Part shown: positions 654 through 23,288 of the stretch, in pieces
Layout: every line of letters starts with the position of its first letter
Position numbering within the stretch: the stretch's first letter is position 1
Assembly (NCBI GenBank): GCA_016209985.1
Contig: JACQVB010000219.1
Location: forward strand, 1 to 55,120
Length of the DNA stretch: 55,120 bases
Direction: 5' to 3'
DNA from: Gemmatimonadota bacterium
Lineage (GTDB): Bacteria > Gemmatimonadota > Gemmatimonadetes > Gemmatimonadales > GWC2-71-9
Made by a program: the position numbers and the translations under genes
Notes under the pieces: generated by a model
What the model was told of the DNA's origin: nothing
The model's input: only the letters and a program-made list of their open reading frames with translations
Database searches by the model: none

Positions 654-695
654 TCGGGGCGCCGGGATTCGAACCCGGGACCTCTTGGTCCCAAA
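654..695. repeat. attL: 42-bp duplicate of tRNA-Pro 3' half
   Basis: Identical over 42 bp to 9482-9523. It contains the T-arm, variable region and half the anticodon stem-loop of tRNA-Pro in minus orientation, then diverges at 696 where an intact tRNA would continue with the anticodon 5' stem. It is therefore a residual attachment core and not a functional tRNA. Confidence 0.92.
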
Positions 696-753
696 GCCTG
701 CCTGTCGCGCCTTCGAAGTGATCATCTGAGCACCTCTCCGCCTCGGGACTAGC

Positions 754-1485
754 TCATCCTGAACCGGTTCCGTCCCCCGCATCGTTCGTCTCGGACCGCG
801 TGTGGGCACTCTTTTGGGCACTTAGTTTTCTGGCAAGTTGGGCGGTTACCTTGACCCCCACCGTCTGCAGCAGGTGCTTCTTGCACTCCGCCAGTTCGGC
901 TCGTGCGGTCGCGATGACAACCTCGGCATTCTCGTGCGGATCTTCCCAGCGGAGCAGGCTCGCGGTCTGCACGAGAACCTCCTTCGCTTCGAGGAAAGTT
1001 GTGAAGGCCGGATAAACAAACTGCTGCACGCTCTCTGAGGCCTGCCCGGCAAGAGCAGCGAGTTCGATCATGCGCGGTTCGATGCCTCGCAGCTGGTCGG
1101 CGATGGAGCCCACCGTCCCGAGATCGCCCAAGTCCTTCATGTCCACATCGTGCTCGATGTCAACCTCGATTGCCGCGACCTCCTTCTGGAGCGCGTGCGC
1201 GCGTATCCGGACCTGTTCATCGGTAGCATCTCGTCGCCGCCTCTCATCCTTTCGCTGGTAGTAGATGGTCAGCCCAGCGAACCACGCCAGGACGACCGTC
1301 GTGAAGAGGTTAACGAACGTGACGGTGAGCTGCTTCCAATCCGTTTTCGGATTCTGCAGCACCCACAGTGTGTCGTGCACGACGGTCGCGGCCTGTTGGA
1401 CCGGGGTTGCTGCTGCCTGAAGGAGGAACATCCGGGATGCCGCCAGGGGTGCAAGAGGACCGGAAGATGCGCCGCAGGCGGGCAC
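754..1485 (-). CDS. single-pass membrane protein with long helical cytoplasmic domain, unknown
   Basis: 243 residues if started at GTG 1485; an ATG at 1431 (residue 19) is an equally good start and neither has a clear ribosome site. One strong membrane segment spans roughly residues 55-77 and is followed by a positive patch (KDERRRR), which places the C-terminal ~165 residues in the cytoplasm. That part is charged and helical, with no motif I recognise. It is the only minus-strand gene in the element and sits directly inside attL, divergent from the terminase. In satellites and prophages this edge position often holds accessory genes such as superinfection-exclusion or defence genes; that role here is only a guess. 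Confidence 0.6.
   Translation of the reverse strand: MPACGASSGPLAPLAASRMFLLQAAATPVQQAATVVHDTLWVLQNPKTDWKQLTVTFVNLFTTVVLAWFAGLTIYYQRKDERRRRDATDEQVRIRAHALQKEVAAIEVDIEHDVDMKDLGDLGTVGSIADQLRGIEPRMIELAALAGQASESVQQFVYPAFTTFLEAKEVLVQTASLLRWEDPHENAEVVIATARAELAECKKHLLQTVGVKVTAQLARKLSAQKSAHTRSETNDAGDGTGSG
801..821 (+). promoter_or_regulatory. candidate integrase arm-type site, left end
   Basis: TGTGGGCAC at 801-809 is followed five bases later by GGGCAC at 816-821. The same pair (TGTGGGCAC, then GGGCAC) occurs at 9385-9404, on the same strand and at a similar distance inside the other end. It overlaps the 3' part of the membrane-protein gene. Interpretation as integrase or excisionase arm sites is inference. 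Confidence 0.35.
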
Positions 1486-1505
1486 CTGCCTAGGTGGGGC
1501 CAGGG

Positions 1506-1618
1506 GGTCAGATGATCAACCCCCAGACGGAATAACATGATCACCTGATCATTCTGACCAGGGTACACAATGATCACCTGATCAACTTTTCATATACGGC
1601 GGTTTTGATCATCTGACC
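1506..1618. promoter_or_regulatory. TGATCA repeat cluster: candidate origin or operator array
   Basis: Six TGATCA hexamers lie in 115 bp (1513, 1538, 1546, 1571, 1579, 1606). A 13-bp perfect inverted repeat, GGTCAGATGATCA at 1506-1518 and its complement at 1606-1618, encloses two direct copies of ATGATCACCTGATCA (1537-1551 and 1570-1584) spaced 33 bp apart. The same TGATCATCTGA word recurs once at 719-729 beside attL. The block is less GC-rich than its surroundings and sits between the divergent membrane-protein and terminase genes, which suits a divergent operator or an iteron-type replication origin for the PrimPol protein. The remaining 260 bp to the terminase contain no gene I can support, only a short AAGG/CATAAG repetition at 1672-1709. 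Confidence 0.6.
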
Positions 1619-1880
1619 TTTCTCTCACCCCTGGTCGCCGGGCTCCGCATGGTCCGGAACCAAGGGGTCAAGGCCGCATAAGTCGTTGTCGATCAAGGCA
1701 TAAGGCATCGTCGTCGTGCCCACACTGATGCCCGCTCGGCCCGTATCCGGGCCCTAATCGGACCCACTACCCACCCTAGTCCCGCTTCAAGCAACACCCG
1801 TGGCCCCCCGGTGACACCGAGGGCCCTCCAAACCCGTCCGCCAAGCTCGTTCCTCGCCTTCCCCCTGCCAGGAGTTCTCG

Positions 1881-3380
1881 ATGCCCCGAGGCAATCCGAA
1901 CATCGCCCAGTACGCCGCGAAGGGAGCGGCGGCTGCCAAGAAAGCCCGGCAAGAGAAGCGCGCCGCAGCGGTGCCCATCGACACCCGGTTCGTGCGGTAC
2001 CGGGACGACCCTGCCGCTTTCGTCACCGACTGCCTGGGCGCCACCAGCGCCACCCGGAGATCGGACGGCAGCCCGTACCAGTTCCAGGTCCTGGCCGACC
2101 TCGCCGCGTTCCCGCGCGTGGCGGTCCGCTCCGGCCACGGCATCGGCAAGTCGGCGCTCGACAGCTGGGCCCTGCTGTGGTTCCTGCTGTCCCGTCCCCA
2201 CTCCCGCGTCGTCGTGCTGGCGCCCGAGTACAGCAGGCAGATCCGGGCCATCCTCTTCGCCGAGGTCCGCCGCTGGGTACGCCGCGCCACGGTGAAGCTG
2301 CCGGTCCAGGTGCTCGCCAGCCGCGTCCAGGTCGGCGACTACGGCGACGCGTGGTCGGCGCAGGGCATGTCCACGTCGGGCGACCCGGACAAGATCGAAG
2401 GTTTTCACAGCGAGGAAGGCGGCGTGCTGGTCATCGCCGACGAGACCAAGGGCATCCCGCAGGCCGCCTTCGACGCGATCCAGGGGGCGCTCTCCTCCAG
2501 CGGCGGCGACTCCAAGCTGCTGGTCACCAGCGTCCCCGGCGGCGCGGGTGCTGGGCCGTTCTGGAAGATCTTCGCGCGCGGCGGGTCGCGCTGGAGGATG
2601 CACCACGTCCCGAGCACCGACTCCACCTTGGTCGCGCCAAGCTGGCTCGACGACATGGCCGGCGAGTGGGGCATCGGTTCTCCGCTCTGGCAGACGCGAG
2701 TTTTGGGCGAGTTCGCCGATGCCGGCGAGGGTGTGATTTTCCCGCTCTCGCTCCTGGAGGCCGCCATGCAGCGCGGGCGGGAGCCGGTCGTCCGCAACGT
2801 CTATGCGGAGGCGATGGCCGCGCCGGAGCCGGTGACCCTGGGCGTGGACGTGGCGCGCAGCAGCGACGGCGACCTGAACACGATCGCCGAGTGCCGGGGG
2901 AACCGGACGCGGGTGCTCGCCACGTGGCGCTCGCCGGACACGATGGTGACGACCGAGAAGGTCGTGCAGACGGTGGCCACCAGCGGTGCCACGCTCTCCC
3001 GCGTGGACGTGACCGGCGTCGGCGCGGGTGTGGCCGATCGCCTGGCGCAGCTCGGACACGCGACCGTGGCGTTCGCCTTCGGCGGCGGCGCCCGTGACCC
3101 ACGCCGGTTCCGCAACGGGAGGGCGGAAATTTTTTGGGGCCTACGTGAACGGCTGGAGAAGGACCTGTGTCTACCCGACGACGATCAGCTGTTCGCCGAT
3201 CTGAGTTCGCTCCGGTATTTCTTCACGGCGTCCGGACAGATCCAGCTGGAGAGCAAGGACGAGACGCGGCGGCGCCTCGGGCGTTCGCCAGACCGCGCCG
3301 ACGCGGTGGCGCTGGCCTGCGCGGCGCCGGGTGTCGCCGGGTCGGCGTGCACGGGGCTAGCGGACATGATCGATATCTAG
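1881..3380 (+). CDS. terL: phage terminase large subunit (ATPase-nuclease)
   Basis: 499 residues, a normal length for the family. The start ATG has a CAGGAG ribosome site 6-11 bases upstream. The N-terminal ATPase shows a Walker A GHGIGKS at about residues 85-91 and a Walker B VLVIADE near 181-187. The C-terminal RNase H-like nuclease shows an LGVDVARS strand with its first acidic residue near 322, a DVTGVGAG strand near 376, and a final acidic SPDRADAVA motif near 471. Known family role: pumps phage DNA into proheads and cuts concatemers. No small terminase, portal or capsid gene accompanies it, so its partners would have to come from a helper phage. Domain identity is strong; the helper idea is inference. 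Confidence 0.88.
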   Translation: MPRGNPNIAQYAAKGAAAAKKARQEKRAAAVPIDTRFVRYRDDPAAFVTDCLGATSATRRSDGSPYQFQVLADLAAFPRVAVRSGHGIGKSALDSWALLWFLLSRPHSRVVVLAPEYSRQIRAILFAEVRRWVRRATVKLPVQVLASRVQVGDYGDAWSAQGMSTSGDPDKIEGFHSEEGGVLVIADETKGIPQAAFDAIQGALSSSGGDSKLLVTSVPGGAGAGPFWKIFARGGSRWRMHHVPSTDSTLVAPSWLDDMAGEWGIGSPLWQTRVLGEFADAGEGVIFPLSLLEAAMQRGREPVVRNVYAEAMAAPEPVTLGVDVARSSDGDLNTIAECRGNRTRVLATWRSPDTMVTTEKVVQTVATSGATLSRVDVTGVGAGVADRLAQLGHATVAFAFGGGARDPRRFRNGRAEIFWGLRERLEKDLCLPDDDQLFADLSSLRYFFTASGQIQLESKDETRRRLGRSPDRADAVALACAAPGVAGSACTGLADMIDI

Positions 3381-3416
3381 GCGCGCCGCTACCACCCTTC
3401 GAACTCCGCTGCAGAT

Positions 3417-3434
3417 AAGCACTTACAAGTGCTT
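3417..3434. promoter_or_regulatory. palindromic operator-like site
   Basis: AAGCACTT-AC-AAGTGCTT is a perfect 8-bp inverted repeat with a 2-bp spacer, located 37 bp after the terminase stop. The shape fits a dimeric HTH regulator site; three XRE regulators are encoded downstream. No T-run follows, so it is not a terminator. Confidence 0.4.
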
Positions 3435-3466
3435 TAGTTGAAGTGAGAATTCGTTGCACAAATCAA

Positions 3467-3497
3467 CGGGGGCGTGTAGGTTGTGCCCCCGCTTTTC
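3467..3497 (+). terminator. intrinsic terminator after the terminase gene
   Basis: CGGGGGC (3467-3473) pairs with GCCCCCG (3485-3491) around an 11-base loop, followed by CTTTTC. It would end the terminase transcript and isolate it from the following small gene. Confidence 0.6.
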
Positions 3498-3552
3498 ATC
3501 CGATTCAAACTCGTTTCGCTCCGCTGAGATGCGGAGGGGGAGAGGACGACCC

Positions 3553-3822
3553 TTGCCCAAAACCGTGTACTGCTCCAGGCGTACCTGCGGCATTCCCTGC
3601 TCCGGCCTCTTCTATATACAGACGATGGCACGGGGTCGAAAAAGAGTGCTGTGCGCCCGGTGCGCTCTCGGACGGGTTGGTGGAAAGAGGATGAAAGGGA
3701 ACATGAAACGGGTTTCCGGCATCCGCCTGGTTGGAGATCGGGCGGCCGCCCAGGTATTCAGTGAACGGAGTGCGAAGCATCGGGTTGCGTGGATACGGTG
3801 GCAGCGGACCCGTGCTGCGTAA
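3553..3822 (+). CDS. small basic cysteine-rich protein, possible zinc ribbon
   Basis: 89 residues from a TTG at 3553, preferred because GGAGGGGGAGAGG at 3532-3544 is a strong ribosome site just upstream; an in-frame ATG at 3529 overlaps that site. Cysteines fall at about residues 7, 12, 16, 34 and 37, the last two as CxxC, which could bind zinc. The rest is Arg/Lys-rich and likely binds nucleic acid. It follows the terminase terminator and precedes the strong promoter at 3855. No family recognised. The reading frame is open well upstream and base composition is coding-like, but with no homologue in view it could be spurious. Confidence 0.4.
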   Translation: MPKTVYCSRRTCGIPCSGLFYIQTMARGRKRVLCARCALGRVGGKRMKGNMKRVSGIRLVGDRAAAQVFSERSAKHRVAWIRWQRTRAA

Positions 3823-3854
3823 AAGAATAGAGGCACAAAAACAGATTTCTAACG

Positions 3855-3882
3855 TGGACATTCGTTAGGCCTACGGTATAAT
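3855..3882 (+). promoter_or_regulatory. strong sigma-70-type promoter with an internal palindrome
   Basis: TGGACA (-35, five of six consensus bases) at 3855-3860, a 16-bp spacer, and a perfect TATAAT at 3877-3882. The spacer contains the 8-bp palindrome TAGGCCTA (3866-3873), a repressor-type position between the two boxes. Start of transcription is expected near 3888-3891. Confidence 0.75.
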
Positions 3883-3887
3883 TTCTT

Positions 3888-3986
3888 ATTAACGGGAGGG
3901 GCGAAGCAGTTTGCCCTTCCGCCCGAAGACGAAATACCCAACCAGAAAGGTCTCGCAGCCATCGTGGCGCGGGACCTTTTTGTTTT
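3888..3986 (+). ncRNA. candidate ~98-nt regulatory RNA with two hairpins
   Basis: The transcript from the 3855 promoter would contain an 11-bp hairpin (3895-3905 with 3910-3920, loop GCAG, two G-U pairs), a 25-base unpaired linker, and a terminator hairpin ending in a T-run. No convincing reading frame fits inside. It lies directly ahead of three XRE repressor-like genes. Two readings are possible: a free-standing small RNA, like the immunity RNA of satellite P4, or a leader with an attenuator controlling the regulators. Structure is read from the sequence; function is inference. Confidence 0.5.
3946..3986 (+). terminator. intrinsic terminator/attenuator before the XRE cassette
   Basis: AAAGGTCTCGC (3946-3956) pairs with GCGGGACCTTT (3969-3979) with one G-U pair. 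The hairpin extends through GCCA/TGGC over a TCG loop, with a single bulged A at 3957. TTTTTGTTTT follows (3977-3986). This is the strongest hairpin-plus-T-tract in the element. Confidence 0.75.
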
Positions 3987-4011
3987 CCACCCCAATGGAG
4001 GACCAGACCAA

Positions 4012-4272
4012 GTGACCAAACCCCCGAAGCATTCCATCCAAGTGAAGGTGTGGCAGCTGCGAGAACTGTGGGGCTGGAGCCAGGCCGATCTGGCCACCGC
4101 GGTCGGCGTCTCGGTCCCGTATCTGTGTCTGATCGAAAAAGGGCGGGTCCTGCCGAGCCTGCGACTGCTTGGCGCGATCGCCGAGGCGCTGGGCATCCAC
4201 GTCGCGGCCCTGCTCGAAATGTCGGCCTTGCGCGCCCCGATCCATCCCCGGAGGCGCCGTGCGCGAGCCTGA
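4012..4272 (+). CDS. XRE-family HTH regulator 1 of 3
   Basis: 86 residues from GTG 4012, chosen for the GGAGG at 3996-4000; an earlier in-frame GTG at 3964 lies inside the terminator hairpin and is unlikely. A canonical Cro/C1 helix-turn-helix spans about residues 10-66, with the WSQADLATAVGVSVPYLCLIEKGR core and the SLRLLGAIAEAL helix. No sensor or cleavage domain follows, only a basic tail. It begins 26 bp after the terminator, so its expression may depend on read-through. It overlaps the next gene by 14 bp. Likely a repressor/antirepressor component of the element's lysogeny-like switch; the target is unproven, with the palindromes at 3417 and 3866 as candidates. Confidence 0.75.
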   Translation: MTKPPKHSIQVKVWQLRELWGWSQADLATAVGVSVPYLCLIEKGRVLPSLRLLGAIAEALGIHVAALLEMSALRAPIHPRRRRARA

Positions 4273-4471
4273 TCTCAACTGCTACTCCGGGCCCCGGCTC
4301 ACCCGTCGCCGGGAACGCGCGCGTCTGACCATCGAGGATCTGAGCGATCGGTCCGCCGTCCCGGTCTCCGTGATACGCCACGCGGAGATGGCGCCAGGCT
4401 ACCGGATGAACCGCGAATGTCAGCGGCGCCTGGATCAGGTGCTCCTGCCCCGACCTATGTGGATGTCATGA
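4259..4471 (+). CDS. divergent XRE-like HTH protein 2 of 3
   Basis: 70 residues from GTG 4259, supported by CGGAGG five bases upstream and by overlap with the end of regulator 1. Residues about 14-62 follow the XRE pattern (LTRRRERARLTIEDLSDRS, then PVSVIRHAE), but less typically than regulator 1. It is a single domain with no extra region. Its stop overlaps the ATG of regulator 3 (ATGA), so the three are probably translated together. Small one-domain XRE proteins often bind as dimers or heterodimers; heterodimer formation here is speculation. Confidence 0.6.
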   Translation: MREPDLNCYSGPRLTRRRERARLTIEDLSDRSAVPVSVIRHAEMAPGYRMNRECQRRLDQVLLPRPMWMS

Positions 4472-4665
4472 CCGGCCGCGAGCTGCGCGCCCGGCGGAAG
4501 GGGCAGAACATGCCCATCACCACCCTGGCCCGCCTGACCGGCTACGGCGTGCAGGCCCTCCGCCGTTTTGAAAGCGGCCACCCGCCCCGAGAGGCCGTGC
4601 GTCGGGTCCTGTGGGCGCTGGGCATCAACCCCGACGAACAACCCCCAGAGGAGAACACCCCATGA
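4468..4665 (+). CDS. XRE-like HTH protein 3 of 3
   Basis: 65 residues from the ATG that overlaps the previous stop. It reads MTGRELRARRKGQNM, then TTLARLTGYGVQALRRFESGH, the turn and recognition helices of an XRE domain, and a final helix containing VRRVLWALGI. The protein is little more than the HTH itself. It overlaps the following gene by ATGA, so translation runs through. Sequence differs strongly from the other two regulators, so the trio did not arise by very recent duplication. Confidence 0.65.
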   Translation: MTGRELRARRKGQNMPITTLARLTGYGVQALRRFESGHPPREAVRRVLWALGINPDEQPPEENTP

Positions 4666-5195
4666 CGGAACAACAGCTGCGGAAGGTGCGCCTGAGCGAC
4701 GGCACCGAGGCGCTCGCCTATGTCGATAACGTGATCAGCATCGACGAGCATATGCGGAGGATCAGCGACGTCGGCCAGGAGCTGTACGACCGGCTCATCA
4801 AGCAGGTCAAAAAGCCGGTCACGATCACGCGCGAGGAAGCCAGTGACGGCCCGACCTGGCGGCGCGCCCGGGATCGCGCCCTGGCCGCGGGCGTCAAGCT
4901 CGTGATCGAGGATGAGCCCGGCCACGATCCGTTCGTGCCACCGCCGCCCCGACCGGGGATCGATGTCATCCTGACCCGCGAGCAGGCCAACGACCACGCG
5001 CTGTACCAGCTCGCGAGCGCGAAAGCGCAAAAACGCGGTGGCACCGTGCGCGTGGCCGAGGACAAACCGTATCACGAGAAGATCGGGCTTACGAAGGAAC
5101 AGGCCGCCGATCCAAACCAGTATGAGGCCGCCCGCAAAGCGGGGGAGAAGGTTGAGACGGATCGTCGGCAGCAGATCGTGGACGCCCTGCCATGA
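4662..5195 (+). CDS. triple-repeat protein of unknown function
   Basis: 177 residues from ATG 4662, coupled to the XRE cassette. Three copies of one ~32-residue unit are visible: residues 53-84 (VTITREEAS...), 102-134 (VILTREQAN...) and 151-167 (IGLTKEQAA..., shortened). Shared pattern: hydrophobic-x-L/I-T-x-E-Q/E-A-x-D, then a helix with Y/W and alanines, then a GxxVxx strand and ED. The middle is a proline-rich linker (about 93-98). Strand-helix-strand repeats of this kind suggest a small scaffold or binding protein. No family recognised. Position between regulators and replication genes suggests an element-specific role. Confidence 0.65.
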   Translation: MTEQQLRKVRLSDGTEALAYVDNVISIDEHMRRISDVGQELYDRLIKQVKKPVTITREEASDGPTWRRARDRALAAGVKLVIEDEPGHDPFVPPPPRPGIDVILTREQANDHALYQLASAKAQKRGGTVRVAEDKPYHEKIGLTKEQAADPNQYEAARKAGEKVETDRRQQIVDALP

Positions 5196-5368
5196 AGAAG
5201 CCAACGCTCCATGGATTCAAGACGGACCCGTCCGGTCCGAAAAAGCTGAAGGGCGGGAAGGCCGCACCCCCGCCGAGCCCGCAGGTGGGTCCGACCATCC
5301 AGACCGCCTACCCGCAAGGCCGCGAGGTCCAGGCGGCGGAAACCGGTATCCGGAGGCTGCGCCCATGA
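5192..5368 (+). CDS. small basic protein, unknown
   Basis: 58 residues, starting with an ATG that overlaps the TGA of the repeat protein and ending in an ATGA overlap with the next gene. The composition is Lys/Pro/Gly-rich in the first half (MKKPTLHGFK, then several KK and PPP), likely disordered. Support is its position: both junctions are overlaps typical of translational coupling in a compact operon. No function can be assigned. Confidence 0.45.
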   Translation: MKKPTLHGFKTDPSGPKKLKGGKAAPPPSPQVGPTIQTAYPQGREVQAAETGIRRLRP

Positions 5369-5520
5369 AAACGCTCATGCCGGAAGACCTCGTCGCGATC
5401 GAATGCGCGTTGAACCGGGTGACCGACGTGCTGCTGAACGAGATCACGCCGTTGTTGCAGGAGATGGCCGTCTCCTTACGTGCCGTCGCCCGGCAGACTC
5501 CCGCCCCGAAAGGAACGTGA
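5365..5520 (+). CDS. small helical protein, unknown
   Basis: 51 residues from ATG 5365, overlapping the previous stop. The sequence forms one long amphipathic helix (EDLVAIECALNRVTDVLLNEI, then a second helix LQEMAVSLRAVARQ), consistent with a small coiled-coil or dimerising adaptor. It ends three bases before the next start, so it belongs to the same operon. No known family recognised. Confidence 0.5.
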   Translation: MKTLMPEDLVAIECALNRVTDVLLNEITPLLQEMAVSLRAVARQTPAPKGT

Positions 5521-5523
5521 ACG

Positions 5524-5844
5524 ATGGAGAAGATCCTCTCGCTGATCCCCGCCCCGGCAGGGGTATACGCCGCCTATGCCAACCGGCACGGTGTGGAAAA
5601 GGTGACGGTGCAGGCATACGCGTTGATCGAAAACGCCCTGGGGGAGCGGGCGATGTTGCCTTGCGTCCTGGACGGGGACACCCTGCGGCCGGCGCGCGAT
5701 CGCAGCGGTTTTCTCGGCTGCTCCGACCACCCCTGGTCGCGGGAGGCCTGGGCCGCGAAGGGCGATGCGTGGCGACACCGCTTCAAAGCCAACTGGCAGC
5801 GGGCGCTGAAAGAAGGCGGGTCCGCTCCCGTTCCTCTCAAGTAG
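5524..5844 (+). CDS. hypothetical protein of the element
   Basis: 106 residues. The ATG has a GAAAGGAACGTGA ribosome site directly upstream. The protein is acidic-to-neutral in its first 60 residues, with AYANRHGVEKVTVQAYALIE and a Cys in MLPCVLDG, then Trp-rich (HPWSREAWAAKGDAWRH). It is cytoplasmic, with no signal or membrane segment. No motif recognised. It is the last gene before the hairpin at 5923 and the replication gene. Confidence 0.5.
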   Translation: MEKILSLIPAPAGVYAAYANRHGVEKVTVQAYALIENALGERAMLPCVLDGDTLRPARDRSGFLGCSDHPWSREAWAAKGDAWRHRFKANWQRALKEGGSAPVPLK

Positions 5845-5911
5845 TCTGGACGAGCACCACCACCGATCAGATCGCCCGGCAGAAATCCACCCGCCACCGG
5901 GGGCCAGGGAG

Positions 5912-5952
5912 GAAAAAGAAAAGCCGTCCCCATTCGAGCGAACGGGGACGGC
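5912..5952 (-). terminator. intrinsic terminator oriented to the minus strand
   Basis: GCCGTCCCC (5923-5931) pairs with GGGGACGGC (5944-5952), with TTC/GAA stacking inside. On the minus strand this is followed by CTTTTCTTTTTC (5911-5922). There is no T-run on the plus strand. Genes on both sides are plus-strand, so it would block antisense transcription entering from the replication gene. The hairpin may also weakly stop plus-strand transcripts. Confidence 0.55.
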
Positions 5953-5971
5953 GGAAGGATGCACCCTGACC

Positions 5972-7753
5972 ATGGGTACCCCAAATTTACCCCCCGACAA
6001 CTCCGAGAGCCACGCCCTGCTGATCGCCGCGCTTTCGTATGCGAAAGCTGGCTGGCGGGTCTTCCCGCTCACGCCCGGGCAGAAGCAACCGCCGCTCGTT
6101 CCTGACTGGCCGAACCTCGCGACCACCGACGAGCGGCAGATCCGCACCTGGTGGGCGGACCATCCCCGCGCGAATATCGGCATCGCGACCGGCGCCGCCA
6201 GCAATCTCTTCGTCCTCGACGTGGACGGCCCCCAGGGCGAGCGATCGCTGGCCGCGCGTTTCTCTGATCTCCCGCCGACCCGCGAGGTCAAGACACCACG
6301 CCCCGGGCGCCATCTGTATTTCTGCGATCCGCCCCCGGACGTCGCTTCCTCGGTCGGGAAGCTCGGGCCCAGGCTCGACACCCGCGTCAACGGTGGCTAT
6401 GTCGTGGCGCCGCCGAGCGTGGTCAACGGGAACGCGTACACCTGGACGAATCCCGACGCTTCCCTGAGGCGGGTTCCGCCCGCCCTGCTCCCCTCTCCGG
6501 TTACTCAGCCCACCGCGATCTCCGAGGGCCAGCGCAACAGCAAGCTCTTTCACCTGGCCTCGCGCCTTCGCGGCATCGGGCTCGGTGACGAGGCGCTGCG
6601 CGAGGCAATCAAGGCGGAGAACCAGCGCTGCGACCCGCCGCTACCGGAAGAAGAACTGGAGGAGACGATCTTCCGGTCCGTCCTCCGGTATCCGGAAGGT
6701 GCTCCTGCCCCAACCTCAACCCTGGCGATCACCGCGTTCGCCGACATCGAGCCGGAGGTCGTCCGCTGGCTCTGGCCGAAGGTGATCCCCTACGGAAAGC
6801 TGACGCTGCTCATCGGCGATCCGGGTCAGGGCAAATCGTTTCTCACCGTCGATCTGGCCGCGCGCGTCTCGGTGGGCGGCACCCTGCCGGACGGTTCGAC
6901 GGTGGACGCGGCGGACGTGCTCCTGGTGTTCTGCGAGGACGGCGCGGGCGATACGGTCAAGCCTCGCCTCAAAGCGGCGGGGGCGGACGAACGCCGCGTG
7001 CATGAGGTGACGGTCACCGGGCGCGACGGTGCCCCTCGGCTGCTGGTCGTGCCCGACGATCTCCCGCCCCTCCAGGTGGTGATCGAGAAGACGGGCGCCC
7101 GTCTGGTGGTCCTCGATCCAATCTCGGCGTTCCTCGGCGAGAAGGTCGATAGCTGGAAGGACGACCAGGTGCGGCGCGCGCTCGTGCCCATCTCCCACCT
7201 GGCGGAGGCGACCGGCGCCGCGATCGTCGCGATCCTCCACCTCAATAAGAAGTCGAGCGCCAACGCAGTACATCGGGCCATGGGGTCGGTGGCGTTTACC
7301 GGCGTGGCCCGCTCGGTGTTCATGGCTGGCCCGCATCCCGAGGACAAGGAGCTGGAGCTGCGGGATCAGCGGAAGGTGTTCGCGCCGGTCAAGATGAACC
7401 TGACCCAGGCGCCCCGGTCCCGGGTGTTCCGGATCGTGGAGGCCGAGGGCGTGGCGCGGGTGCTGTGGGAAGATGAAACGCGGCACTCAGCCGAGGACGT
7501 GCTCACCAGCCAGATGGGGGTCCAGGCCACGCCCGAGGGCGCGCTCGAAACAGCCCTGCAGTTCTTGAGGGAGACGCTGGCGGGTGGACCCCGCCCTGCG
7601 AAGGAGATCTTCGACCTCGCCAAAGGGCAGGAAATCAGCGACGTGACGTTGCGGCGCGCTGCCGACCGGGGCGTGATCAAGCGGCAGGAGAAGGACGTGA
7701 CCGGCAAACGCTGCTGGACGTGGGCGCTGTCCGACGTGAAGGAGAACTTCTGA
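5972..7753 (+). CDS. PrimPol-AAA replication protein (primase/polymerase plus helicase)
   Basis: 593 residues. The N-terminal third is a bifunctional primase-polymerase domain: GWRVFPLTPGQKQP near 27-40, a catalytic LDVDG near 82-86, a PRPGRHLYF strand near 110, and GYVVAPPS near 143. The C-terminal half is a RepA/RecA-like AAA domain with Walker A GDPGQGKS near 283-290 and a hydrophobic-plus-D motif VVLDPISAFLG near 375. A short helical C-terminal region follows. Family role: primes and unwinds DNA to replicate plasmids, phages and satellites. The likely origin is the TGATCA array at 1506-1618. GGAAGG at 5954-5959 is the ribosome site. The stop overlaps the next ATG. Confidence 0.88.
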   Translation: MGTPNLPPDNSESHALLIAALSYAKAGWRVFPLTPGQKQPPLVPDWPNLATTDERQIRTWWADHPRANIGIATGAASNLFVLDVDGPQGERSLAARFSDLPPTREVKTPRPGRHLYFCDPPPDVASSVGKLGPRLDTRVNGGYVVAPPSVVNGNAYTWTNPDASLRRVPPALLPSPVTQPTAISEGQRNSKLFHLASRLRGIGLGDEALREAIKAENQRCDPPLPEEELEETIFRSVLRYPEGAPAPTSTLAITAFADIEPEVVRWLWPKVIPYGKLTLLIGDPGQGKSFLTVDLAARVSVGGTLPDGSTVDAADVLLVFCEDGAGDTVKPRLKAAGADERRVHEVTVTGRDGAPRLLVVPDDLPPLQVVIEKTGARLVVLDPISAFLGEKVDSWKDDQVRRALVPISHLAEATGAAIVAILHLNKKSSANAVHRAMGSVAFTGVARSVFMAGPHPEDKELELRDQRKVFAPVKMNLTQAPRSRVFRIVEAEGVARVLWEDETRHSAEDVLTSQMGVQATPEGALETALQFLRETLAGGPRPAKEIFDLAKGQEISDVTLRRAADRGVIKRQEKDVTGKRCWTWALSDVKENF

Positions 7754-8091
7754 TGCGCGCCCCCATGTGTACGTCCGGACCCTCGCAAACTATTAATACC
7801 CTGGTCGAGGCGTGGCGGGCCGAGGCCGAACATTACGCCCGCGACGGCGCGCTGGTCCGGGGCGATCTGCTGCTGCTCCGGGTGGCCGACGAGATGGAGC
7901 GCGCGCTCGGTCAGGCGGCGCTCGAAGCCCTGGTGGTGAAGGACGCCGCTGCCGAGGCCCGCGTCTCACCGGGGACGATCCGGCGCTGGCTCCGCGAGGA
8001 GCGGCTGCCGAACGTCGGGACGAAAGGGAGACCTCGCGTACGGCGGGGCGATCTCCAGCGGAAACCGGATATGAGAAAGGAGCCAGCATGA
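7753..8091 (+). CDS. excisionase-like HTH protein
   Basis: 112 residues from ATG 7753, which overlaps the stop of the replication gene. The first ~65 residues are helical (VEAWRAEAEHYARDGALVRG, then LLLLRVADEMERAL). The C-terminal part contains a helix-turn-helix of the excisionase/MerR-like type (AAEARVSPGTIRRWLREERL, then PNVGTKGRPRVRRGDL). It overlaps the integrase start by ATGA, which matches the usual xis-int coupling. It probably bends DNA at the att sites and directs excision; it may also regulate. The family call is by HTH pattern and position. Confidence 0.7.
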   Translation: MRAPMCTSGPSQTINTLVEAWRAEAEHYARDGALVRGDLLLLRVADEMERALGQAALEALVVKDAAAEARVSPGTIRRWLREERLPNVGTKGRPRVRRGDLQRKPDMRKEPA

Positions 8092-9365
8092 GCAGGGGCA
8101 AGAAGCGCAAGGCCTGGAGCTACTCGACGGGGGCGTATAAGGAACGCGTCCGCGTCTACGAGCTTGCGGGCGGAGCCCTGGTTGCGGACATCCGCGAGGG
8201 GGGTCGCCGTCGTCGGGTCCGGCTGCCGCTCCGGGACAGGGGTGCGGCCATCGACTGGGCCCGCGAGCAGGCGGCACAGCGTGCCGTGGGCGTGGCCAGC
8301 GACGTGAGCCGACCGACGCCGACCGTGGCGTTCGTCCTGAGCCACTACCTCCACCACTGGCGGAGCAAGCGCGGTCGCCCGGTCGGTCCCGACGATCACC
8401 GGCGCGCCGAGCTATGGACCCGCGTGCTCGGGGCCCACACCGACGTGCGACGGCTCTCCTCCGCTGTGTGGCAGCGCTTTATCGAGGACCGCCGGGCGGG
8501 CGCCATCGATGCCCGGGGCGAGCGGGTGCCGCTGGAGGGCCAGGTCATCGGCGAGCATCCCGACGGCACCGTACGCCGCCGACCGCGCCGGACGGTGCTG
8601 GCCCGTGCGGTCGAGGCCGACTGCGAGTGGCTGGTCGGCGTCCTCGCCTGGGCGGTCAACTGGCGAGACCAGGGGGCGTACCTGCTGACGGAGAATCCGG
8701 CGCGCGGCCTGCCGATCCCGCGCGAGACGCAGCCGCGCCGCCCGCTGGCGACGCAGGACCGGTTCGAGGCGTTGCGGGCCGTGAGCGACCAGGTGCAGAT
8801 GGAGATCCGCTGGAAGGGTCGCCGCCAGCGGCAGCGGTCCTACCTCCGGGAGCTGCTCGACCTGGCCAACGGGACCGGGCGCCGCATCGGGGCCATCTGC
8901 CAGCTACGGTCGGATGACCTGCGCCTCGACGTGAAGCCGCACGGCGCGATCCGCTGGCCGGCCGATACGGACAAGATGGGCGCCGCGTGGTTCGCGCCGA
9001 TCAACGCCGAGGTGCGGCGCGCGCTGGACCGGATCGCCGTCGAGCGGCTGACCGGCGCCTGGGCCGAGGCGGACTCACCTTTCCTGTTTCCTTCCCCGCA
9101 GCGACCGGGCAAGCCCGTCTCCAAGGATCTCGCAGCGGCATGGCTCGAAGAGGCGGAGACGCTGGCCAAGCTGGACCATCTGCCGCGCGGCGGCTTCCAC
9201 ATGTTCCGCCGGAAGTGGGCCACCGATCGCAAGGCGCTCCCCGTTACCGATGTGGCGGCGGCGGGCGGGTGGAAGACCCCCTCGATCGTGACGGACATCT
9301 ACCAGCAGGCGGACGCGGAGACGCTCCAGCGCGTGGTCGATAACGACCGGGAAGGGCGAGGGTAG
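8088..9365 (+). CDS. int: tyrosine recombinase (integrase)
   Basis: 425 residues from ATG 8088; the frame is open further upstream but that part is the shadow of the excisionase gene. It has an N-terminal arm-binding-like region, then a core-binding domain, then a catalytic domain with GRRIGAICQL (Arg about 266), HMFR (His 371, Arg 374), GGWKTPS (Trp 396) and the nucleophile Tyr at 405 in DIYQQ. The usual Glu after the first catalytic Arg is Ala here, which is tolerated in some members. It reads toward the right attachment site. It joins the 42-bp tRNA-Pro cores on integration and, with the excisionase, reverses it. Confidence 0.93.
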   Translation: MSRGKKRKAWSYSTGAYKERVRVYELAGGALVADIREGGRRRRVRLPLRDRGAAIDWAREQAAQRAVGVASDVSRPTPTVAFVLSHYLHHWRSKRGRPVGPDDHRRAELWTRVLGAHTDVRRLSSAVWQRFIEDRRAGAIDARGERVPLEGQVIGEHPDGTVRRRPRRTVLARAVEADCEWLVGVLAWAVNWRDQGAYLLTENPARGLPIPRETQPRRPLATQDRFEALRAVSDQVQMEIRWKGRRQRQRSYLRELLDLANGTGRRIGAICQLRSDDLRLDVKPHGAIRWPADTDKMGAAWFAPINAEVRRALDRIAVERLTGAWAEADSPFLFPSPQRPGKPVSKDLAAAWLEEAETLAKLDHLPRGGFHMFRRKWATDRKALPVTDVAAAGGWKTPSIVTDIYQQADAETLQRVVDNDREGRG

Positions 9366-9384
9366 CGGGCTTGGATCGCGCCGA

Positions 9385-9404
9385 TGTGGGCACGAAGCGG
9401 GCAC
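9385..9404 (+). promoter_or_regulatory. candidate integrase arm-type site, right end
   Basis: TGTGGGCAC (9385-9393) and GCGGGCAC (9397-9404), mirroring 801-821. GCGGGCACCTGC at 9397-9408 is also repeated exactly at 1478-1489. It lies about 80 bp inside attR, after the integrase stop. No other feature is visible in 9366-9481. Confidence 0.35.
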
Positions 9405-9481
9405 CTGCGCTCCTCAGGGGGCGCGGGGCTCGCGCCGGACGAGGGCCCTCAACTACCTTGGTGCATGCGAGTTAGGAAGAG

Positions 9482-9523
9482 TCGGGGCGCCGGGATTCGA
9501 ACCCGGGACCTCTTGGTCCCAAA
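9482..9523. repeat. attR: 42-bp core inside tRNA-Pro
   Basis: Identical to 654-695. Here the core continues into the 5' half of a complete tRNA-Pro, so integration kept the tRNA functional by supplying its 3' half. Confidence 0.92.
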
Positions 9524-9555
9524 CCAAGCGCGCTACCGGACTGCGCTACGCCCCG
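9482..9555 (-). tRNA. tRNA-Pro(TGG)
   Basis: 74 nt without encoded CCA. Acceptor CGGGGCG pairs with CGCCCCG, the D-arm is GCGC...GCGC, the anticodon loop holds TGG, and the T-arm CCGGG-TTCGAAT-CCCGG is perfect. It is the integration target of the element to its left. Confidence 0.95.
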
Positions 9556-23191: not shown

Positions 23192-23288
23192 TGGCGGGAG
23201 CGTGTGGGAATCGAACCCACCGGAGCCACCACTGGCGTCTCCCAGCAGTTTTGAAGACTGTGCAGACCACCAGGCCCGATCCGCCCCC
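23192..23288 (-). tRNA. selC: tRNA-Sec(TCA), selenocysteine
   Basis: 97 nt including an encoded CCA. Anticodon TCA sits in loop CTTCAAA (23252-23254 on the plus strand). The long variable arm, GTGGG-TTCGATT-CCCAC T-arm and G73 are typical of selC. The acceptor pairs GGGGGCG with CGCTCCC (one G-U), and the eighth position is a G-A mismatch. Its presence implies that the host inserts selenocysteine at UGA; no selA, selB or selD lies in the window. Confidence 0.93.

Follow-up and report, generated by a model that had tools for sequence, protein, structure and literature searches.

The window, i.e. the whole stretch of 55,120 nt analysed here, belongs to a Gemmatimonadota genome of 4.64 Mb in 289 contigs and contains an 8.87-kb element at 654-9523 which is bounded by 42-bp perfect repeats. 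The boundaries and the recognisable genes of this element are as follows.

654-695, no strand: left att repeat, a 42-bp copy of the 3' part of tRNA-Pro, 100% identical to 9482-9523
1881-3380, + strand: lone terminase large subunit (phrog_2, E = 1e-31)
4012-4272, + strand: XRE-family HTH protein 1, XRE1 (HTH_3, E = 4e-11)
4259-4471, + strand: weak HTH protein 2 (HTH_31, E = 0.007, below the cut-off)
4468-4665, + strand: XRE-family HTH protein 3, with ATGA overlaps at both ends (HTH_31, E = 4e-7)
4662-5195, + strand: 177-aa protein of the same operon, no family match
5972-7753, + strand: Prim-Pol / AAA helicase replication protein (Prim-Pol, E = 7e-46; AAA_25, E = 1e-31)
7753-8091, + strand: excisionase-like HTH protein (phrog_66, E = 1e-4)
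8088-9365, + strand: tyrosine integrase adjoining tRNA-Pro (Phage_integrase, E = 5e-13)
9482-9523, no strand: right att repeat, the 3' part of the intact tRNA-Pro (9481-9555, - strand) in which it lies

The satellite-like element and its operon

Phage satellites have been defined as elements of 7-20 kb with att repeats, an integrase and genes for regulation and replication, lacking structural genes (PMC13376191). The element inserted in tRNA-Pro combines a length of 8.87 kb and 42-bp repeats with an integrase, Prim-Pol and XRE genes, and no portal, capsid or other structural gene was found among the element proteins searched; the terminase large subunit is also carried, and it stands alone. 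The set of integrase, excisionase-like, Prim-Pol/AAA, XRE-type and terminase genes fits a phage satellite, therefore we regard the element as a candidate member of this class, although it may also be a decayed prophage.

Several genes behind the leader are linked by ATGA overlaps (4468, 4662, 5192, 5365). The original prediction had placed three XRE genes directly after a small RNA: three ORFs with HTH character do follow, the match of the middle one being only weak and below the cut-off. No convincing relative of the 177-aa protein (4662-5195) was present in 395 genomes. Other observations in the neighbourhood include a possible 89-aa cysteine-rich protein at 3553-3822, between terminase and promoter, with a TTG start behind a GGAGAGG-like SD and a weak coding signal (GC by codon position 0.57/0.59/0.66); a strong terminator-like hairpin of 13 pairs on the - strand at 5923-5952, between 5844 and the Prim-Pol gene; and, elsewhere in the window, a selenocysteine tRNA gene at 23192-23288 on the - strand.

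Promoter, candidate operator and predicted leader RNA

The region directly ahead of XRE1 comprises the following features.

3849-3876, no strand: candidate operator, half-sites CTAACG (3849), CGTTAG (3863) and CTACGG (3871) around the -35 and the spacer
3855-3882, + strand: sigma-70-like promoter TGGACA (3855-3860)-N16-TATAAT (3877-3882), 11/12 match, the best site of the element
3889-3986, + strand: leader RNA predicted to end at the terminator, about 95-98 nt (~97), fold z = -5.44
3895-3920, + strand: hairpin 1, 11 bp (3895-3905 with 3910-3920), loop GCAG, -19.1 kcal/mol
3911-4015, + strand: candidate 34-codon leader ORF (LPFRPKTKYPTRKVSQPSWRGTFLFSTPMEDQTK), TTG 3911 to TGA 4013-4015, with GC3 bias and a coupled stop
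3943-3986, + strand: intrinsic terminator, hairpin 3943-3982 and U-rich tract TTTTTGTTTT 3977-3986, proposed attenuator
3982-4004, + strand: small hairpin predicted to mask the XRE1 SD (GGAGG, 3997-4001) in the read-through transcript, -7.9 kcal/mol

The promoter that had been proposed from the letters is present with 11 of the 12 consensus positions, and its expected transcription start is near 3889. No second site in the first 10 kb reaches 9/12, and every other site on the + strand of the element scores 8/12 or less; these scores refer to the sigma-70 consensus, by which other promoter types are missed and from which the promoters of the host itself may differ. The pair formed with a terminator roughly 100 nt downstream is unique within the 8.9-kb element, and the combination of a promoter scoring 10/12 or more with a terminator 40-200 nt further on was seen in 0/300 dinucleotide shuffles of the element and in 0/2000 of the local region.

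The palindrome TAGGCCTA that had been noticed between -35 and -10 was located at 3866-3873, occurs in a single copy in the window and belongs to the set of CTAACG/CGTTAG-like half-sites which makes up the candidate operator. This operator contains a perfect inverted repeat with an 8-bp spacer, and the pattern of three half-sites has P about 0.03 in local shuffles. The position of the half-sites over the -35 suggests, as far as the sequence goes, that a repressor controls the promoter as a second layer of regulation. Such ordinary repressor-operator control might even be the entire explanation, with transcription switched by a DNA-binding protein, which may be the product of one of the XRE genes adjoining the promoter, and with the terminator merely damping a constant leaky read-through. 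We consider this rather unlikely, because it leaves a strong terminator 25 nt ahead of the first gene unexplained and because the half-site set is present once in the element and hence provides no tie to a regulon.

The RNA expected from this start is predicted to be highly structured: the fold of 3889-3988 has -46.8 kcal/mol (z = -5.44), and 0/200 shuffles were equally stable. Hairpin 1 has the 11 bp ascribed to it, although it begins 12 bases past the -10 and not within 10 bases as had been stated. It is followed by the linker (3921-3942) and the terminator hairpin (3943-3982), and the length of the RNA, described as ~98 nt, is predicted here as about 95-98 nt. The sequence elements of the original description are all present, with distances slightly corrected and with the statement that the RNA has no reading frame being doubtful. 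In the read-through RNA the XRE1 SD is largely paired too in the predicted fold; the small hairpin at 3982-4004 has P = 0.01 bare and 0.15-0.36 with flanks, which makes it weak evidence. Additionally, the linker segment GAAGACGAAA (3923-3932) can pair with the U-rich tail (3977-3988) at -9.2 kcal/mol (P = 0.01 versus shuffled linkers); this pairing was left out of the explanation, since the model has no need of it.

Candidate leader ORF and proposed attenuation of the operon

Starting at TTG 3911, behind the SD-like sequence GGGAGGGG, the reading frame in question stays open for 34 codons, traverses linker and terminator and shares bases at its stop with GTG 4012, the start of XRE1 (GTGA), in the manner of the ATGA overlaps found downstream. 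Its three codon positions have GC contents of 0.38/0.53/0.79; so high a GC3 is reached in 0.1% of base shuffles (P about 0.001), and GC3 exceeds the other two values in 3/3 sub-blocks. An SD together with an open, coupled frame of 25 codons or more occurs in 3% of shuffles (P = 0.03). The frame has weak points as well: the spacing of 11 nt between SD and TTG is long, TTG is a weak start, the GC1 of 0.38 compares with 0.57-0.76 in the other genes, and no homologue was found in the relatives searched. Taken together, the codon statistics and the coupled stop are no more than suggestive of a translated gene. Both the SD-like GGAGG (3895-3899) and the TTG (3911-3913) sit in hairpin 1, with an unpaired probability of at most 0.05 in the predicted fold.

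The arrangement of the transcription signals corresponds to that of attenuators with a leader ORF, as an intrinsic terminator lies between promoter and first gene with no intervening promoter, as far as the sigma-70 type is concerned. The U tract ends 25 nt before the XRE1 start, no sigma-70-like promoter could be recognised between them, and further downstream on the + strand of the element none reaches at least 8/12; thus the operon appears to depend on read-through. If the operon is reached in this way, which is the simplest reading, then the terminator would be an attenuator. It is conceivable, nevertheless, that two independent parts merely adjoin each other, the terminator ending transcripts from the terminase side, the short RNA being a functionless by-product and the operon having a promoter of another type. 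The scan leaves room for this arrangement, as it misses other promoter types and its consensus may not be that of the host. We judge it quite improbable all the same, since the gap from the U tract to XRE1 is only 25 nt and the terminase gene is already followed by a terminator-like hairpin of its own (3467-3491).

We propose, with about an even chance of being correct, that premature termination in the 5' leader of the regulator and replication operon yields the ~97-nt RNA and that the terminator acts in cis as an attenuator. Between the two functions originally offered for the RNA, immunity and attenuation, the latter is the better supported one, given that no other recognisable sigma-70-like promoter lies from the terminator to XRE1 or downstream of it. 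Transcription would start at about 3889, probably under repression through the inverted repeats over the -35, and by default it would halt at the terminator, 25 nt before XRE1, so that the operon (the three XRE-type genes, the primase-polymerase, the excisionase-like gene and the integrase) would be expressed from read-through transcripts only. The anatomy points to translation as the condition of read-through: hairpin 1 would hide the SD and the start of the leader ORF, which spans the terminator and has its stop at the start of XRE1, and when hairpin 1 is opened, or RNA polymerase is slowed, a ribosome could disrupt the terminator and move on to XRE1.

Translation of the leader ORF alone would probably be insufficient for this, and a pause or another factor would be needed, because in E. 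coli a terminator placed 30 bp into a translated ORF remained largely efficient (PMC4824070). A pause site can bring about the coupling between translation and such a terminator, and pyrBI, as cited in PMC4824070, is a precedent for short leader ORFs of this kind.

Comparison with known RNAs and related loci

One of the closest parallels in architecture is offered by the pyrBI operon of E. coli. There the leader ORF extends across the terminator as far as the first structural gene. The present leader ORF would likewise cross the terminator and stop at the first gene; for pyrBI, coupling through pause sites is cited in PMC4824070. The differences are that here the SD and the start of the ORF are buried in a strong hairpin, that the gene context is another one, and that nothing at this locus points to a pause site or to pyrimidine sensing.

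Satellite P4 provides another parallel, in that termination in an untranslated leader keeps its replication genes off and a short RNA, CI, derives from the primary leader transcript (PMC4825925). In anatomy, and in anatomy only, the locus corresponds to the P4 type, having a prematurely terminated leader, with promoter and terminator, ahead of an operon with a primase. However, the P4 CI RNA acts on the sequences flanking it, seqA and seqC, with which it pairs (PMC4825925), while here no complementarity of the seqA/seqB/seqC type was found in the element, there is one strong terminator, XRE repressor-type genes follow directly, and a match to C4 is lacking. The best duplexes of hairpin 1, the linker, the terminator and the whole RNA with the + strand of the rest of the element were no better than those of shuffled RNAs, in a coarse comparison with 15 shuffles per RNA part. 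The Rfam model C4 matched neither the RNA at E <= 10 nor the genome at E <= 1, and isrK likewise failed to match the RNA at E <= 10 and had a chance-level match only elsewhere in the genome. The P4-type immunity RNA of the original prediction has consequently found no support in the pairing or in the C4 and isrK models, and the target check it had suggested for the linker ended in the same way, with pairing inside the element no stronger than that of shuffled RNAs.

These results bear also on the broader possibility of a stand-alone regulatory RNA working in trans, either in immunity like P4 CI or on its own read-through mRNA like IsrK of Gifsy-1, which is a prophage precedent (PMC4825925). 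A strong promoter, a stable fold, a clean terminator and the location ahead of regulator and replication genes would suit such an RNA, yet the pairing of hairpins, linker and whole RNA with other parts of the element does not exceed that of shuffled RNAs, C4 and isrK are unmatched, and nothing alike was seen in the relatives searched; we therefore hold this explanation to be unlikely. The short RNA may still act in trans on targets outside the element or, as IsrK does, on its own mRNA. The likeness to IsrK itself consists in a prophage-borne short RNA that extends to an intrinsic terminator, read-through of which yields a polycistronic mRNA with a small ORF coupled to the next gene, but orf45 of IsrK lies downstream of the sRNA, whereas the present ORF begins in hairpin 1 and crosses the terminator. 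Among the ctRNAs of repABC, the Rfam model ctRNA_p42d resembles the terminator hairpin and its flanks (AGAAAGG...CCUUUUU) with 22.8 bits; this is far below the gathering score of 50, the resemblance is confined to the terminator, and the RNA lies here in sense to the operon, so that identity with ctRNA_p42d was rejected.

Relatives of the RNA were sought at several levels. A DNA search of 61 relatives gave short chance matches only, the exact hairpin pattern was absent from IMG/VR, and a covariance model, built from this single RNA sequence, found nothing in a phylum-level sample of 395 genomes under stricter filters. In an order-level sample of 287 genomes the same model had two matches besides itself (29.5 and 25 bits), which adjoin genes resembling housekeeping genes and were judged to be terminator look-alikes (L081, L082). 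The genome samples overlap and are draws from larger groups, and the filters lose weak matches. With no homologue among the sequences searched, neither the hairpins nor the leader ORF show conservation, which speaks against the attenuator model. Relatives of the Prim-Pol, integrase and terminase proteins, at about 24-64% identity, lie in other contexts and lack the XRE module, and a promoter and terminator scan of related loci revealed no comparable arrangement. The closest terminase relative found (L067:8027-9385, genome G021) has about 60-63% identity, in a region with no match to other element proteins. The IMG/VR contig IMGVR_UViG_3300017649_000022 (L083) encodes relatives of the integrase (46%), of the excisionase-like protein (38%) and of the N-terminal part of Prim-Pol, beside ORFs that resemble phage head and terminase genes; judged by this content it probably represents a related but more complete prophage, without this leader.

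As read from its letters the arrangement is a real feature, control by premature termination is of an already known kind, and the attenuator proposed here would be a single instance of it. A more far-reaching version, to which we assign only a very slight chance, would make the leader a satellite switch: a trans-acting factor, a protein or RNA of a helper phage, would open hairpin 1, the ribosome would break the terminator and turn on the repressor and replication operon, and the terminated RNA would feed back on its own mRNA. If the attenuator exists as proposed, a satellite-like element outside the well-studied groups would resemble P4 in using premature termination as a gate to regulator and replication genes, though with means other than those of P4, and the leader would be a small switch, open to direct test, from which to learn what activates such elements.
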